A stretch of 49,067 nucleotides of DNA from Pseudobdellovibrionaceae bacterium (GTDB lineage Bacteria; Bdellovibrionota; Bdellovibrionia; Bdellovibrionales; UBA1609): the NCBI GenBank assembly GCA_018663505.1, contig JABJQG010000066.1, forward strand, positions 1 through 49,067, in the 5' to 3' direction. How positions within the stretch are numbered: position 1 is the stretch's first letter; each line of letters begins with the position of its first letter. Shown piece by piece: positions 14,362 to 25,977 of the stretch. The notes beneath the pieces were generated by a model. It saw nothing but the letters and a program-made list of their open reading frames with translations, was not told the origin of the DNA and ran no database searches. The translations under genes and the position numbers were made by a program.

Positions 14362-16269
14362 TTAATGAACGCCTTGTCTGAAGCCGTTGCCTCGTCCATT
14401 ATTGCGTCCATTTCCATTGCGTGCGCTGGAGTTATTTCCGTTATTTCTATTGCCGTTTCTATTATTACCGATATAAGGCATCTGTCTTGATCCTGTATAT
14501 GAATTTCCTGAGCCTACAATATTTCTTCTTTGTCCATTCATATTGTTATTAGCTGTATTATTCACAAGTGGTTGTTCACTGTCAAAACTGAATGGGTATT
14601 GAACATATTTTCTGTTGTTGATGTCGGTTACAGATTTTAGACTGGAATCAATGGTTAGTTTATCAAAGTTGCTATACTTAAGTAAATCAGAAGAATAGTC
14701 ACCAATATTCACTCGGCTTCTTGCTTGTAGAGCATCACTGTATTTATCTTCTTTATTTGATCTTGAACGCCTTTTTGATTTTGACGATTTTGATTTTCTA
14801 AATGAAATTTTTGATAAGCTGTCTAAAGCTTTATCTCTATTTTTAAAGTTTTGGCTAGACTTACACATGGGGCTTCTGATGTATTTTTTTGTAAAACAGT
14901 TCATTGAATTTGAAATTTTAATATAATCAGACTCAATATCTGTAACATTTTTATAGTCAGATCTGTTAAGGTCGCTGGATTCCACACCTTCTGTCATTTT
15001 CAAAACTTTTTTATAGTGCTTTTGAAAATCTAGATTTAACGCAGTGGCCATTTTTAACTTTTTGTTCATATACTCTTTACGATTTTCTTCGAGCATAGCT
15101 GTAATGGCTCTCTTTTCTGTAAAAGGAACTCTTGGGTCGTACTGTAATTCTTGAATTTCTTTTTTAAATCGAGCGTTAGTTGAATTTATATCTTTTAAAA
15201 TATTATCTTCAAGATCTTTGTTTTCAGCTAGAAATTCTTTATGAGCATGTAAAGATTTGGCCTTTGCTTTTAATGTATTGATGGCATTGTAAAACGGTTC
15301 ACTATCTTCTAGATCAAGGTCATTATCGTTGTCCTCATTAAACATAGATTCAAGTTCTTCAATATTATCATTAAAGTCGGATTGGTCTTTTTTAGCGGCA
15401 AGTTTTCTTAATCGAGTTAAGAGCCCTTTTTTCTTATTAGTAAATACTTGTTTTAAAAAAAGATCTTTATCGATGGTTTTATTATAAGGTTCATCTTCAA
15501 GAATACTGATAATATGATCAAAGCCGTTGTGAGCAAGTTTATCTACACAAGCCATAAGGTCTTCCATAGATTTAATCTTTTTTAATTTTTTAGCTTCACC
15601 ATCAGCGCTCTGTTTTTGACAACGTAGTTGAGCCAATAAATTTTTGCGTGTGCTTTTGTATTTTTTATCGGATTTTTTAGTGGCTACATTTGATGTCTCA
15701 GTATCATCAGTGGTCTGTAGTTTTAATGTAGCATTTAGGGCGTCCTGAATATTGTTAATATTATTTTCACCTACTTTAAAGGTATGCTCTGATTTACAGT
15801 TACCTGTGGTGCAGTGCTTGCCCTCTATATCCACGCGGATATATTTATTGTTTTTCTTTAACTTAGACAGTACATTTTTAGGTGAATCAACAGGGTCAAA
15901 TCCACCATATCCATCAGTTGTATATACTTTTGATTTTTTCATATGTTTTGATGGATCGAAGGCGATCATATTATGTTCGTTAACACCTTTTCTCTTATCA
16001 TTCACAACCAGAAAGCCTTTATTTTTAATCAGTTGTTTATTTGTCTTTGTTGCAGTGTATCCTGTTAAATCGTAATCATCTGTGGATTTTTTTTCTTCCT
16101 TTGCAAACACATGCTTTGTAAGTTCCACCTTTTCTGATTCTTCAGAATCGCTAGATGCCATGTCTGTGCTGCCGTATTCCACACTGTAATTGGACCACGA
16201 TGATGTGGCAGCTAGTAAACAGAATAGTCCTGCTATAAGTAGCTTGTTCTTTTTAGTTATTGTTTTCAT
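14362..16269 (-). CDS. Large exported low-complexity protein with Asn/Gly-rich tail
   Basis: The frame is open back to 16509, but GGAGGG lies 8 nt before the ATG at 16269, and the signal peptide begins there (KKNKLLIAGLFCLLAATSSWS). This gives 635 aa. The mature protein is Lys/Asp/Ser-rich with long predicted helices in the middle (about 210-430), a strongly basic RKSKSSKSKRRSRS patch near residue 505, and a C-terminal tail of about 50 residues made mostly of Asn, Gly and Arg. Six or so cysteines occur in mature regions (GKHCTTGNC, QLRCQ, MACVDK, NCFTK, PMCKSS). I recognise no family. Low-complexity tails of this kind are probably disordered; a surface or secreted role is inference. Confidence 0.65.
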   Translation of the reverse strand: MKTITKKNKLLIAGLFCLLAATSSWSNYSVEYGSTDMASSDSEESEKVELTKHVFAKEEKKSTDDYDLTGYTATKTNKQLIKNKGFLVVNDKRKGVNEHNMIAFDPSKHMKKSKVYTTDGYGGFDPVDSPKNVLSKLKKNNKYIRVDIEGKHCTTGNCKSEHTFKVGENNINNIQDALNATLKLQTTDDTETSNVATKKSDKKYKSTRKNLLAQLRCQKQSADGEAKKLKKIKSMEDLMACVDKLAHNGFDHIISILEDEPYNKTIDKDLFLKQVFTNKKKGLLTRLRKLAAKKDQSDFNDNIEELESMFNEDNDNDLDLEDSEPFYNAINTLKAKAKSLHAHKEFLAENKDLEDNILKDINSTNARFKKEIQELQYDPRVPFTEKRAITAMLEENRKEYMNKKLKMATALNLDFQKHYKKVLKMTEGVESSDLNRSDYKNVTDIESDYIKISNSMNCFTKKYIRSPMCKSSQNFKNRDKALDSLSKISFRKSKSSKSKRRSRSNKEDKYSDALQARSRVNIGDYSSDLLKYSNFDKLTIDSSLKSVTDINNRKYVQYPFSFDSEQPLVNNTANNNMNGQRRNIVGSGNSYTGSRQMPYIGNNRNGNRNNGNNSSARNGNGRNNGRGNGFRQGVH

Positions 16270-16528
16270 ATTAATACCCTCCATTAATACCTGGATCCAT
16301 CCAGGGGTTTCACTGTTTGAAAGTTCAATTCCTGGGCCTAAAGTGCCAGTTTGTAAGATTATGAAAACATTGGTCTTTTTAAATACTAGACAGTTGTAAA
16401 AAGTTTGACCGGGTGTAAAGGAATTGAAAGATGAGTGGGATATTTCATGGAAAACGGCCTTATATTGGCTGTTTAAAAGTTTGATGGATGAAATTGCCCA
16501 AAGTAACAAAATTTGTTAGAAAGGGGGG

Positions 16529-17647
16529 GTGTTAGAGCCTGGAATCATGGGGAATCCCACTAAATTAGAGCCAAATAAGCAGTTGGACTGGAAATGGCAA
16601 AGCCGTAAATCCTTACGTTCTTTAAGTGATTTTGAGCAATATTTTGATCTTTCAGTAGATGAAAAGAAGGCATTTGCCTATAACCAGGATCTTTTTCAAG
16701 TAAGAGCCACCCCATATTATGCAAGTTTAGCTCATAAGACGGATATAAACTGCCCCATACGCCAAATATTAGTGCCTCAGTTTAAAGAAGTGGAGGCTTA
16801 TAAAACGCAAAGCTTAAAAGACCCCTTGGCCGAAAGGCAGAATAACCCTGTACCCAGAATCATACATCGTTATAAAGATCGGGTCCTTTTGTTAGTTACA
16901 GATTTTTGTAGTGTGTATTGTCGTTACTGCACAAGAAAACATTTTACTGCCACTGGCCAGGCCGTAATTTCTAAAAAAGATTTTCACTTAGCTCTGGATT
17001 ACATTTATAAACACAGCGAGATAAAAGAGGTGATTTTGTCAGGTGGTGACCCTCTGACATTATCTGATGAAAAGTTAGATGAGCTTTTGTATGCAATTAA
17101 AGGGATTCCCCATGTGGAACTAATTAGGATTGGTACTCGAGTACCTACGGTTATGCCCATGCGTGTGACGGAGAAGCTAGTTAAAATTTTAAGAAAACAT
17201 AAGCCCGTATTTTTAATGAGCCATTTTAATCACAGAAAGGAAATCACGGATTTGTCATCGCAGGCCTTAGAACTATTTGTAGACCATGGCATTCCTGTAA
17301 TGAATCAAATGGTTTTGTTAAAAAATATAAATGATTCTGCAGATGCTGTTTATGAGCTTTCTCGGGCTTTGTTGCGCTTAAGAGTAAAGCCCTATTATAT
17401 GTTTCAGTGTGACCCTGTGGTAGGTACAGAGCATTTAAAAGTATCCCTGGAGAAATCAAAATCTATTCAAAGAGAACTATGGGGGCATAGTTCTGGACTG
17501 GCTATGCCGAACCTTTCTTTAGATATTCCGGACGGCGGAGGCAAAGTAGGTATAGTTCCAGATTTTTACCAAGGATCTGAAGCTGGAACCCATTTTTTTG
17601 TTGGGTTTGACGGGGTAAAAGGGGTATATAAAGACCCGGTGGAATAA
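16529..17647 (+). CDS. kamA: KamA-type lysine 2,3-aminomutase (radical SAM, PLP)
   Basis: A 372-aa radical-SAM enzyme that would interconvert L-lysine and L-beta-lysine. The iron-sulfur cluster motif is CSVYCRYC (Cys127, 131, 134). PLP-binding Lys339 lies in PDGGGK, and the acidic residues expected to hold the substrate are present in FQCDPVVG and LSLDIPD, which favours KamA over the translation-factor modifier EpmB. The start is a GTG directly after a G-rich Shine-Dalgarno; an ATG six codons later is an alternative. It is shorter at the ends than clostridial KamA. No beta-lysine acetyltransferase gene is adjacent, so an osmolyte role is not shown. The gene is divergent from the 635-aa gene and its stop is followed immediately by a long inverted repeat. 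Confidence 0.85.
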   Translation: MLEPGIMGNPTKLEPNKQLDWKWQSRKSLRSLSDFEQYFDLSVDEKKAFAYNQDLFQVRATPYYASLAHKTDINCPIRQILVPQFKEVEAYKTQSLKDPLAERQNNPVPRIIHRYKDRVLLLVTDFCSVYCRYCTRKHFTATGQAVISKKDFHLALDYIYKHSEIKEVILSGGDPLTLSDEKLDELLYAIKGIPHVELIRIGTRVPTVMPMRVTEKLVKILRKHKPVFLMSHFNHRKEITDLSSQALELFVDHGIPVMNQMVLLKNINDSADAVYELSRALLRLRVKPYYMFQCDPVVGTEHLKVSLEKSKSIQRELWGHSSGLAMPNLSLDIPDGGGKVGIVPDFYQGSEAGTHFFVGFDGVKGVYKDPVE

Positions 17648-20647: not shown

Positions 20648-21127
20648 TTACTGGTTTGCTGTTGCTCGATTTAATCGTTGCTTTAACCATCTCTTTGCAT
20701 TCAGTTTGATTTCTGTCAGTCTAAACTTAGTAATTTTGCAGGAGTCAGGTTGAGACTTCTTAAGCCATTGTATGCGGCCGCGTGGTTTTTTTTTGTCGCG
20801 GAGTTCAATTATAAGGTTAACTGTTTCAAAAAGTTCCTCAGAAATTAGTGAAGATTTAGGAAAACATTCCCCTCTATTGAAGTCGACTATAATAGAGGGG
20901 GAGACTCCGCCTAAACTATCTTGAAGAAAAGTGAGTCCTAGTGGACAGGTAAAATCTTTCTTTGACTTTAAATGTTTAACTTTGAGAAGGCCTAGTCCTA
21001 CCCCATCTAAGGAAAGAGTGGCTGTCCAATGTGGATTTTTAATGTTACATTTTATTATAGGAGTATTTGCCAAGATTAATTTTGTGGAAAATATCATAAA
21101 AATTAGAATGATTTTATTTATGTTCAT
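20648..21127 (-). CDS. Small exported protein translationally coupled to the PAD gene
   Basis: A 159-aa protein with a signal peptide (residues 1-20, IFMIFSTKLILAN). The mature part has four cysteines (IKCNIK, FTCPLG, GECFP, DSCKI), strand-like segments, and a very basic C-terminus (RWLKQRLNRATANQ). I recognise no family. Its ATG overlaps the PAD stop by 4 bp (ATGA), so both are made from one transcript in a coupled way. An accessory, partner or inhibitor of the PAD is a reasonable guess only. Confidence 0.65.
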   Translation of the reverse strand: MNINKIILIFMIFSTKLILANTPIIKCNIKNPHWTATLSLDGVGLGLLKVKHLKSKKDFTCPLGLTFLQDSLGGVSPSIIVDFNRGECFPKSSLISEELFETVNLIIELRDKKKPRGRIQWLKKSQPDSCKITKFRLTEIKLNAKRWLKQRLNRATANQ

Positions 21128-22686
21128 TCAGGGCTCCTAGGATTACAAATATGCAGGGTATGGGTAGCGCAATGTAGGTTTCCACCGCCCATATGTGCAT
21201 AATCAAAAGTATCTATAAAATCGGACTCTAGGCCTCTTTTTTTGTATTCTGATTTTATATATTTTTCAAATATTTGACTTCCAGATATTGGAGCGATGAT
21301 CGTGTTATCAACAGAAACTGAATTTGTTGAATTTGGTAAGAGTGATTCGCCAAATCGTTTAGAAAGTTCTAGAGTGCCATCTTTCTTTTGAATAGCTTGC
21401 CCTCCGAAAAAAATATCTGGAACATCAATAAAATCAGGTGTGCAACTTGGCAGCCTTTTTTTGAGCTTGGCTGTTAATTGCTTCTTAAGGTCATCCATTT
21501 TCTGTTGAATGAGTTCGTTGTATTTTTTTAATAGTGTATTATTTGATGTTAAAACTTTTAAAATATGTTTGTTAGTCATGTTATGGCAATCGGTCAATTC
21601 TTTTAAAGGTTTAGCAAAGGAGAGGGTTACACCCGCATAGGCTCTATTAATAAAAAAATTAATGAGCTTAAAGTCAATCTTACTTGTGTTTGGTGATTTT
21701 TTTTCAGTGATAACTTCATCCTCAATAAGATCTAAGGCCGCATTGCAAAAATGTGAAATTCCCCTATGGTAATATGCGCGGGTGGAGAGGAGTTCTTCGT
21801 TTTGTGGAAAAAATAAAAATGGTTTTTCTTGGTTATTTCTTAAGAGCTCTATGGCTTTTTTTGGGCTAGATATTGCAATTGAAAAATTACAAGGTTCCTT
21901 TTTATTATTATTTTTAATAACTTTCATTATTTCATCTGTATGGCCTATACTTAACCAAGAAGTTGGTACTTTAATTTTATTCTCAGGATCTTTTCCACAA
22001 AATTGATCAGAATAGAATTCCCAATGTTTATCTTTTTCAATAGCGTCATCACCAAATAAGCAAAACCCACCGGGAAGGCCTTCAATATTTCCACCACGGT
22101 ATCCCCCTTTTGGTTCACCTAGATTCTTTAGAGGTGATCCTGTTTTAAAGCCACATTCTCTCACAGCTTTAGAAATTTCCTTAAAGGATTTTTCAGAGTC
22201 AAATTTATTAATATTAAATTTGTAACTATCTACTATTCGCAAAACAACCTCACCTTTTTTATTAAAAAAAGATTCGAAATAATCCTGTTGCCATGTATAG
22301 CTAGGTGCAGGGACCCTAATAAGTGCAGACTTCCATTTTTGTTTTTTAGCTATATCAACTGGTAATGCATCTATATTTCTAACAACAGTATCAAAAGTAC
22401 CCTTTGATACTGTTAATAACATAAGTGGTGGGTTATCATTTGATGCATTTAAAACTTTATTAACAAATGACGAAGTAAAAGCTGAATCAATTCCCCACCC
22501 GGTTGAGCCATCTGAAACAATTACGGCAGATGTGGGGAATGTTTCGGGTAGGATTGTATTGTCACCTTTTGGACAAAGAGGTATGGTGTCTGCTCGGTTT
22601 TTTATCCAGTCTGGGCAGCTACTAAAAGCTGCTTCTGAAAAAAATACTAAAGTAGTTAAAAGGACAATATTTCTAAGCCATGACAT
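21124..22686 (-). CDS. Secreted protein-arginine deiminase (PAD catalytic domain)
   Basis: A 520-aa protein with a signal peptide (residues 1-22). It matches the catalytic domain of animal-type peptidylarginine deiminases, which convert protein arginine to citrulline using calcium. Matching segments occur in family order: TWQQDYFES (Asp135), GGNIEGLPGG, LFGDD, SWLSIGHTDEIM (His249, Asp251), FIDVPDIFF, the SVDNTIIAP region, and GGGNLHCATH (Cys506). These correspond to human PAD4 Asp350, His471, Asp473 and Cys645, so the catalytic set is complete. The two N-terminal immunoglobulin-like domains of animal PADs are absent. Eleven cysteines suggest an oxidising location. It is distinct from the agmatine-deiminase-like Porphyromonas enzyme. 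A TATAAT promoter lies upstream and a coupled small gene downstream. Confidence 0.9.
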   Translation of the reverse strand: MSWLRNIVLLTTLVFFSEAAFSSCPDWIKNRADTIPLCPKGDNTILPETFPTSAVIVSDGSTGWGIDSAFTSSFVNKVLNASNDNPPLMLLTVSKGTFDTVVRNIDALPVDIAKKQKWKSALIRVPAPSYTWQQDYFESFFNKKGEVVLRIVDSYKFNINKFDSEKSFKEISKAVRECGFKTGSPLKNLGEPKGGYRGGNIEGLPGGFCLFGDDAIEKDKHWEFYSDQFCGKDPENKIKVPTSWLSIGHTDEIMKVIKNNNKKEPCNFSIAISSPKKAIELLRNNQEKPFLFFPQNEELLSTRAYYHRGISHFCNAALDLIEDEVITEKKSPNTSKIDFKLINFFINRAYAGVTLSFAKPLKELTDCHNMTNKHILKVLTSNNTLLKKYNELIQQKMDDLKKQLTAKLKKRLPSCTPDFIDVPDIFFGGQAIQKKDGTLELSKRFGESLLPNSTNSVSVDNTIIAPISGSQIFEKYIKSEYKKRGLESDFIDTFDYAHMGGGNLHCATHTLHICNPRSPE

Positions 22687-25032: not shown

Positions 25033-25977
25033 TCAAAGTTCTGTTTTTAATAAACAATTTTTTAAACTTAAGTTGAAAGCGCCTGTTTTAGGTTCAAAGC
25101 AGTTTTGAATGCCTTCAATGGGCTGGTATAGACCTTTGTGCTTACCACCGCCGAAACTACCATCAGTATTGAACCGACATAGGTACCCATCGTCAGTACA
25201 GTGATCAAGATCTAAGAATCCAATACTTACACCCAGAACTTCCTTTTTCATATTAATAATTGGTCCGCCGCTAGTCCCTTGTAATCCCAAACAAGAGTGA
25301 CTTCCAGCGATAGGAATAATAGACTGGGATTTATTATGAGCTAAGGGGATAGGAAGTTCAGATTGGCAGGAATATTCAGAAATAAATCGGGAAGACATAG
25401 GTAAATCATTTAAAGGGATACCTAGTACATGAAGCGGTTTATTTAGGCCAGGGAAAGAGTGTGGAGCAATCTTTAATCCTTTAGTGCCTATGCTTTTCAT
25501 GTGACCAAAAGTTGCATCTAACTGCATAATTGATAAATCCATATCATCAAAATTAGCATAGAGAATTCGTTTAACATTTAATGTAGCTGTGAAGCTTGTT
25601 GTATCTGCGAATAAGCCAAAAGTAACTTTGAGCGGGCTTTTTGCATTGGTAATAATTTTTTTGTTTGATTTGAATACTTGATTGTTTTTAATTAAAAGAG
25701 AGCATTTGGCATGCGACACGGTTATGAAATATGCAGGGCTACTATCGTTATGTCCAAAATCTGGAACAAAACCACTACAGCCAAAGAAGCCATTTTTAGT
25801 TTCATATTTTATTTGTCCAACGGATTCATAATGGTTATTAGACTCCAGTTCGGAGCTAGAGACTAATCTTAAGTTGCGAGTAAAATCCTCGACATTAAGT
25901 TCATCAGCTTTTGCATTAAAGAGAATTGAGTAAAAGGCGACAGTATATAATGGCCAAATTAAAAAAATTTTGTTCAT
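25033..25977 (-). CDS. Secreted trypsin-like serine protease
   Basis: A 314-aa protein of the trypsin-like (S1/PA clan) fold with a signal peptide (residues 1-24, cleavage near NAKADE). The catalytic triad is visible: His89 (TVSHAKC), Asp147 (DDMDLSIMQL) and Ser236 (QGTSGGPII). Cys67/Cys92 are placed like the Cys pair that brackets the active-site His in the family, and further cysteines sit near the Ser loop (HSCLG). No PDZ domain is present, so it is not HtrA. It probably acts in the periplasm or outside the cell. A 21-bp motif shared with the gene at 38146-38586 lies about 105 bp upstream. Confidence 0.85.
   Translation of the reverse strand: MNKIFLIWPLYTVAFYSILFNAKADELNVEDFTRNLRLVSSSELESNNHYESVGQIKYETKNGFFGCSGFVPDFGHNDSSPAYFITVSHAKCSLLIKNNQVFKSNKKIITNAKSPLKVTFGLFADTTSFTATLNVKRILYANFDDMDLSIMQLDATFGHMKSIGTKGLKIAPHSFPGLNKPLHVLGIPLNDLPMSSRFISEYSCQSELPIPLAHNKSQSIIPIAGSHSCLGLQGTSGGPIINMKKEVLGVSIGFLDLDHCTDDGYLCRFNTDGSFGGGKHKGLYQPIEGIQNCFEPKTGAFNLSLKNCLLKTEL

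Follow-up and report, generated by a model that had tools for sequence, protein, structure and literature searches.

Secreted citrullination in bacteria has mainly been discussed for the Porphyromonas enzyme PPAD, which belongs to a family other than that of the animal protein-arginine deiminases (PADs), i.e., PADI1-4 and PADI6. Animal and some cyanobacterial PADs are three-domain proteins, and other bacterial as well as fungal PADs have been described as two-domain proteins made of a divergent PAD_M and PAD_C (Cummings et al. 2021, PMC8826395). In that survey, 69 proteobacterial species are grouped with the fungal and actinobacterial PAD type, and both pPAD and gADI fall outside the PADI clade; its text makes no mention of secretion, of an operon or of Bdellovibrio (PMC8826395). 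For secreted cysteine proteases of C10/C47, small inhibitors encoded beside the enzyme have been described, the staphostatins and the staphostatin-like Bfi, for which a role in protection of the producer has been proposed and of which Bfi1A is predicted to be periplasmic (PMC2873492).

The window considered here, i.e., the whole stretch of 49,067 nucleotides of DNA that was analysed, carries a gene for a secreted PAD that overlaps with a gene for a second secreted protein, its partner (Table 1). An earlier note on this DNA had recognised the enzyme class, the export and the catalytic residues, all of which stand, and had missed the minus-strand orientation, the coupled partner gene and a conserved loop motif. 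The assignment to the PAD family alone is fairly ordinary; the unexpected part is the conserved gene pair with a secreted partner of no Pfam family.

The PAD Gene and Its Family Assignment

The PAD is encoded by an intact open reading frame (22686..21124; ATG at 22686, TGA at 21126-21124), and the plus strand across 21124-22686 is full of stops. The Pfam profile PF03068, with which the earlier note had proposed to search, matches at 73.3 bits, far over the cut-off of 25 (E 2.4e-20), in support of the PAD catalytic domain that the note had claimed. Human PAD4 is recovered from the window PAD by single-sequence phmmer (E 2e-6), and a 12-member family profile run against the PDB brings up PADs only above noise (PAD3, E 2e-11; PAD4, E 1e-10). 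PF03068 matches all 12 members of the PAD set A1, in which no other Pfam family is matched. The same Pfam family contains the fungal, actinobacterial and proteobacterial PADs (PMC8826395). Neither the Pfam family of PPAD nor those of arginine deiminases match the window PAD; its likeness to Porphyromonas PPAD would lie at the level of function, i.e., secreted citrullination, with a different family. By family, the protein is thus a secreted bacterial counterpart of the animal PADs and presumably shares their activity, the conversion of protein arginine to citrulline.

The residues Asp135, His249, Asp251 and Cys506 occupy exactly these positions in the minus-strand translation, and the segments GGNIEG, SWLSIGHTDE, FIDVPDIF and GGGNLHCATH, from which the family had originally been read, are all present. 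The predicted export signal was found by eye as the N-terminal signal peptide MSWLRNIVLLTTLVFFSEAAFSS, and what had been called many cysteines amounts to 11. Lipoprotein anchoring at Cys24 was considered and is unlikely, as Glu18 disrupts the lipobox context and Cys24 co-occurs with Cys38, which suggests a disulfide instead.

Elsewhere in the window, 16529-17647 encodes a KamA-family radical SAM protein that passes the KamA subfamily cut-off and no equivalog cut-off (lysine, arginine or glutamate aminomutase), 25033-25977 a secreted-looking trypsin-like protein slightly under the Pfam cut-offs, and 14362-16509 a long open reading frame of 715 amino acids with no Pfam match.

Table 1. Features of the PAD locus, with positions in the window.
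Feature	Position	Strand	Basis
Secreted PAD (PF03068), catalytic domain only, 520 aa	21124..22686	-	Pfam, phmmer, PDB profile search, AlphaFold2 model
Signal peptide (first 23 or so residues)	22618..22686	-	Read by eye
Catalytic Asp135 (PAD4 D350)	22282..22284	-	Kept in 71/71 relatives; aligned to PAD4 through relative L035
Catalytic His249 (PAD4 H471)	21940..21942	-	Direct PAD4 alignment; kept in 70/71 relatives
Catalytic Asp251 (PAD4 D473)	21934..21936	-	Direct PAD4 alignment; kept in 70/71 relatives
Loop with predicted disorder (residues 325-363, pLDDT below 50), bracketed by Cys314 and Cys367	21598..21714	-	AlphaFold2 model, cysteine conservation
Segment FKLINFFINRAYAG conserved in the loop (residues 339-352), with a hydrophobic stretch that ends in Ala-x-Ala, signal-peptidase-like	21631..21672	-	Alignment of relatives
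Nucleophile Cys506 (PAD4 C645)	21169..21171	-	Direct PAD4 alignment; kept in 69/71 relatives
ATGA overlap of PAD stop and partner start codons	21124..21127	-	Sequence
Partner, 159-aa secreted protein, C27/C61/C88/C130 conserved, predicted beta-barrel-like fold with C-terminal helix	20648..21127	-	ORF, profiles, AlphaFold2

Fold, Active Site and Calcium Site

An AlphaFold2 model of the window PAD built from 12 sequences (pLDDT 77, pTM 0.82) matches residues 294-661 of human PAD4 over 330 residues (Z 31, rmsd 3.0), i.e., it has the deiminase fold on which the earlier reading depended, at about 20% sequence identity to the animal PADI enzymes. The match begins 41 residues into the window PAD, at PAD4 residue 294, and neither the Pfam search nor the structural alignment yields a PAD_N or PAD_M domain, in agreement with the lack of Ig-like N-terminal domains noted before. 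After the signal peptide, the window PAD thus consists of the catalytic domain alone, from which the calcium sites of PAD_N and PAD_M are absent, and its architecture differs from both the three-domain and the two-domain accounts (PMC8826395). Other differences from the animal enzymes are its export, its operon partner, its conserved pairs of cysteines and its long loop of predicted disorder; the catalytic fold, the Asp/His/Asp/Cys set and the Ca1 positions are alike.

In PAD4, we take D350, H471, D473 and C645 to be the catalytic residues, Q349, E353 and E411 to be Ca1 ligands, D369 to be the Ca2 switch, R372 and R374 to be the backbone-binding arginines and W347 to be the equivalent of Trp132 of the window PAD. 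The three Ca1 ligand positions correspond to Q134, E138 and E202 in a two-step alignment via the relative L035, and the window PAD is predicted most likely to have at least one Ca1-like calcium site. Trp132 is kept in 69/71 PADs; the region of D369, R372 and R374 is too divergent in the window PAD for residue-by-residue alignment. Among the cysteines, Cys266 and Cys415 are invariant in the PAD relatives and Cys209 and Cys230 co-occur perfectly (32/32), which suggests disulfides within an exported enzyme and fits an oxidising compartment.

Distribution of PAD Relatives

The PAD family profile matches 76 of the 369 sampled Bdellovibrionota genomes (about a fifth) in a patchy manner, and the relatives with names belong to Bdellovibrionota, with one, L012, labelled only 'Proteobacteria'. 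Distribution as phage or plasmid cargo was rejected, given that the search of viral contigs yielded no relative and that the plasmid search returned one distant PAD only, from Streptomyces. The closest relative, L017 (43% identical), has no partner gene; in L017/L053 (G041), the catalytic four are kept and the Ca1 ligands are lost (Q to K, E to Q, E to G). A lipoprotein-like PAD, L028 (G004), has His/Asp/Cys replaced by M/N/S and is likely a pseudoenzyme. The loss of several catalytic residues in L028, together with the loss of the Ca1 ligands in L017, indicates that decayed PAD members exist; one further PAD, L140 (G225), is a decayed copy fragmented by several stops. In addition, there is a set of short-loop PADs without a partner (L014, L015, L016, L020, L023 and L021, L022, L043, L045, L048, L051, L078), the N-termini of which look membrane-anchored or lipoprotein-like.

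The Partner Gene

The partner has a signal peptide of its own, and the PAD-partner arrangement recurs across the phylum and across families with a spacing of -9 to +26 nt. Partner homologues adjoin 38/71 collected PADs, in two cases upstream instead of downstream. In an independent partner scan of the 369 genomes (E<=1e-4), 24 of the 27 matches adjoin a PAD, and the three that do not are found in G160, G251 and G161. The partner-like genes of the first two genomes (L129 and L130, respectively), with no PAD nearby, are possible orphan guard genes. In one locus, L065 (G054:C26:1-13000), two PAD genes lie in tandem, and a separate partner-like gene goes with each of them. Profiles made in a leave-one-out manner, with the test sequence and its close relatives removed and the signal region cut off, recover the omitted partner with E<1e-5 in 25/29 cases, including that of the window at E 1.3e-17. 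As a rough control within the same loci, a coupled reading frame of similar size follows 16/214 other secreted genes versus 24/48 PADs.

No credible Pfam match was obtained for any of 11 partner members. Four cysteines are kept in the subgroup of window-type partners; for homology of this four-Cys subtype to a two-Cys subtype, comparison of profiles gives weak support (E 4e-4, probability 34%). In 404/406 pairs, divergence is faster for the partner than for the PAD. In the AlphaFold2 model of the partner (pLDDT 82), an all-beta fold that resembles small barrels is joined by a helix at the C-terminus, and a search with this fold returned a best Foldseek E of 0.04, with none <0.001, and a best Z of 7.8, which is the level of unrelated models. 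No clear structural family stands out, and absence from the match lists is no proof of a new fold.

The Disordered Loop

The loop of residues 325-363, disordered in the model, is hypervariable, yet most partner-bearing PADs hold in it a hydrophobic segment that ends in small-x-Ala (AYAG in the window PAD). In a non-redundant set, the segment is found in 19/25 partner-bearing PADs, versus 5.9 expected in shuffled loops, and in 2/30 other PADs; its strict small-x-Ala form occurs in 12 PADs versus 1.4 in shuffles. By sequence count, the association of segment and partner is strong (32/2/6/31); on the tree, it is not significant, resting on four to six independent changes. The idea that secreted proteins of this clade generally share a motif for internal cleavage was rejected, as there is no enrichment outside the PADs in the same loci. 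Within the hydrophobic stretch, many PADs have charged residues (K340 and R348 in the window PAD), which argues against an ordinary signal-peptidase site. The segment may serve either for docking of the partner or for processing.

The Gene Pair in Bdellovibrio bacteriovorus

The pair is present in genome G190, which was identified as B. bacteriovorus HD100 and which both published bd1934 primers (PMC3593177) match exactly. The gene bd1934 codes for a prey-induced nuclease and has its transcriptional maximum early in predation (PMC3593177, PMC7925074). In G190, the PAD and the partner sit between bd1934 and a gene for a cysteine desulfurase, which is the function given to Bd1938 (PMC2797640); by counting, the PAD should thus be bd1936 and the partner bd1935. 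Literature searches returned nothing relevant linking Bdellovibrio with PAD or citrullination, and none on bd1935/bd1936. Since markerless deletion is established in B. bacteriovorus HD100 (PMC3593177), a role of the pair in predation is directly testable. The description of the host as a possible predator is plausible, because the relatives are from Bdellovibrionota and one of the genomes with the gene pair is that of B. bacteriovorus.

Proposed Function of the PAD and Its Partner

The reading that we prefer, and to which we give an even chance of being right, is that of a secreted PAD used on prey or the surroundings together with a dedicated periplasmic binding partner, which would most likely be an inhibitor. 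The PAD would be exported via the Sec route as the catalytic domain alone, be stabilised by disulfides, have at least a Ca1-like calcium site and, most likely, hydrolyse protein or peptide arginine to citrulline outside the cytoplasm by Cys-His-Asp-Asp chemistry. The partner, a small exported beta-barrel co-made with the PAD, would bind it and, by analogy with staphostatin-like inhibitors (PMC2873492), most likely keep it inactive in the periplasm of the producer, either by way of the conserved loop segment or jointly with it, until release of the PAD into prey or the surroundings. Like the staphostatins and Bfi, the partner is small, predicted to be barrel-like, fast-diverging and encoded directly beside a secreted cysteine enzyme; however, no sequence relation to them was detected in the Pfam searches, and the enzyme that it accompanies is a deiminase instead of a protease. 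The weak match of its predicted fold, among the hits of which a lipocalin-like small barrel does not stand out, does not indicate inhibition, and a dedicated protein inhibitor of protein-arginine deiminase was not found in the literature searched. PADs resembling lipoproteins or membrane-anchored proteins are without a partner, which indicates that a periplasmic catalytic domain does not always need one.

It is also because of these partner-less PADs that the main rival reading has the partner assist the disulfide-rich PAD in folding, export or maturation, e.g., by acting on the long loop, a tenable though rather unlikely role. The partner accompanies soluble PADs with a long loop, which carries the conserved Ala-x-Ala segment between Cys314 and Cys367, and is absent from the short-loop PADs of lipoprotein-like or anchored appearance. 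However, it matches no chaperone family, most partner-less relatives retain an intact catalytic set, and chaperones less typically diverge so fast.

A further possibility, which is unlikely but would fit both of these partner roles, is that cleavage occurs in the loop segment and that a one-chain zymogen would thereby be converted into a two-chain enzyme held together by a Cys314-Cys367 disulfide. This would account for a signal-peptidase-like motif in a variable, disordered loop bracketed by conserved cysteines, and is consistent with the excess of its strict form over shuffled loops and with the lack of enrichment in other secreted proteins of the loci; on the other hand, the charges at K340 and R348 are unlike true signal peptides, the segment could equally be a docking peptide, and the Cys314-Cys367 disulfide is itself putative.

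Small beta-barrels often bind ligands, and both proteins are exported and co-made from overlapping genes, so that the PAD and the partner might act jointly outside the cell, with the partner as a targeting or substrate-binding subunit; neither the sequence nor the fold of the partner indicates a target, however, and we consider this distinctly improbable. Least probable is that the enzyme modifies the guanidine group of free arginine, agmatine or another small molecule instead of protein arginine, for although the equivalents of PAD4 R372 and R374, which grip the backbone, cannot be placed in the alignment and protein specificity is thereby not established, PF03068 is the sole Pfam family matched, Trp132 is conserved, the enzyme is exported, and the model matches PADs across the whole domain.

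Returning to the preferred reading of an inhibited, secreted PAD, human PAD4 loosens histones in neutrophil traps, and by a doubtful extension of this analogy, a dedicated inhibitor might control a predator-released PAD that, possibly together with the nuclease (bd1934 in HD100), loosens prey nucleoid proteins.

The animal-type fold is present as a stand-alone exported enzyme in about one-fifth of the sampled Bdellovibrionota genomes, often with a partner gene. Should inhibition be its role, the partner would represent a naturally occurring protein inhibitor of the PAD fold, which would be of relevance to PAD biology in inflammation.
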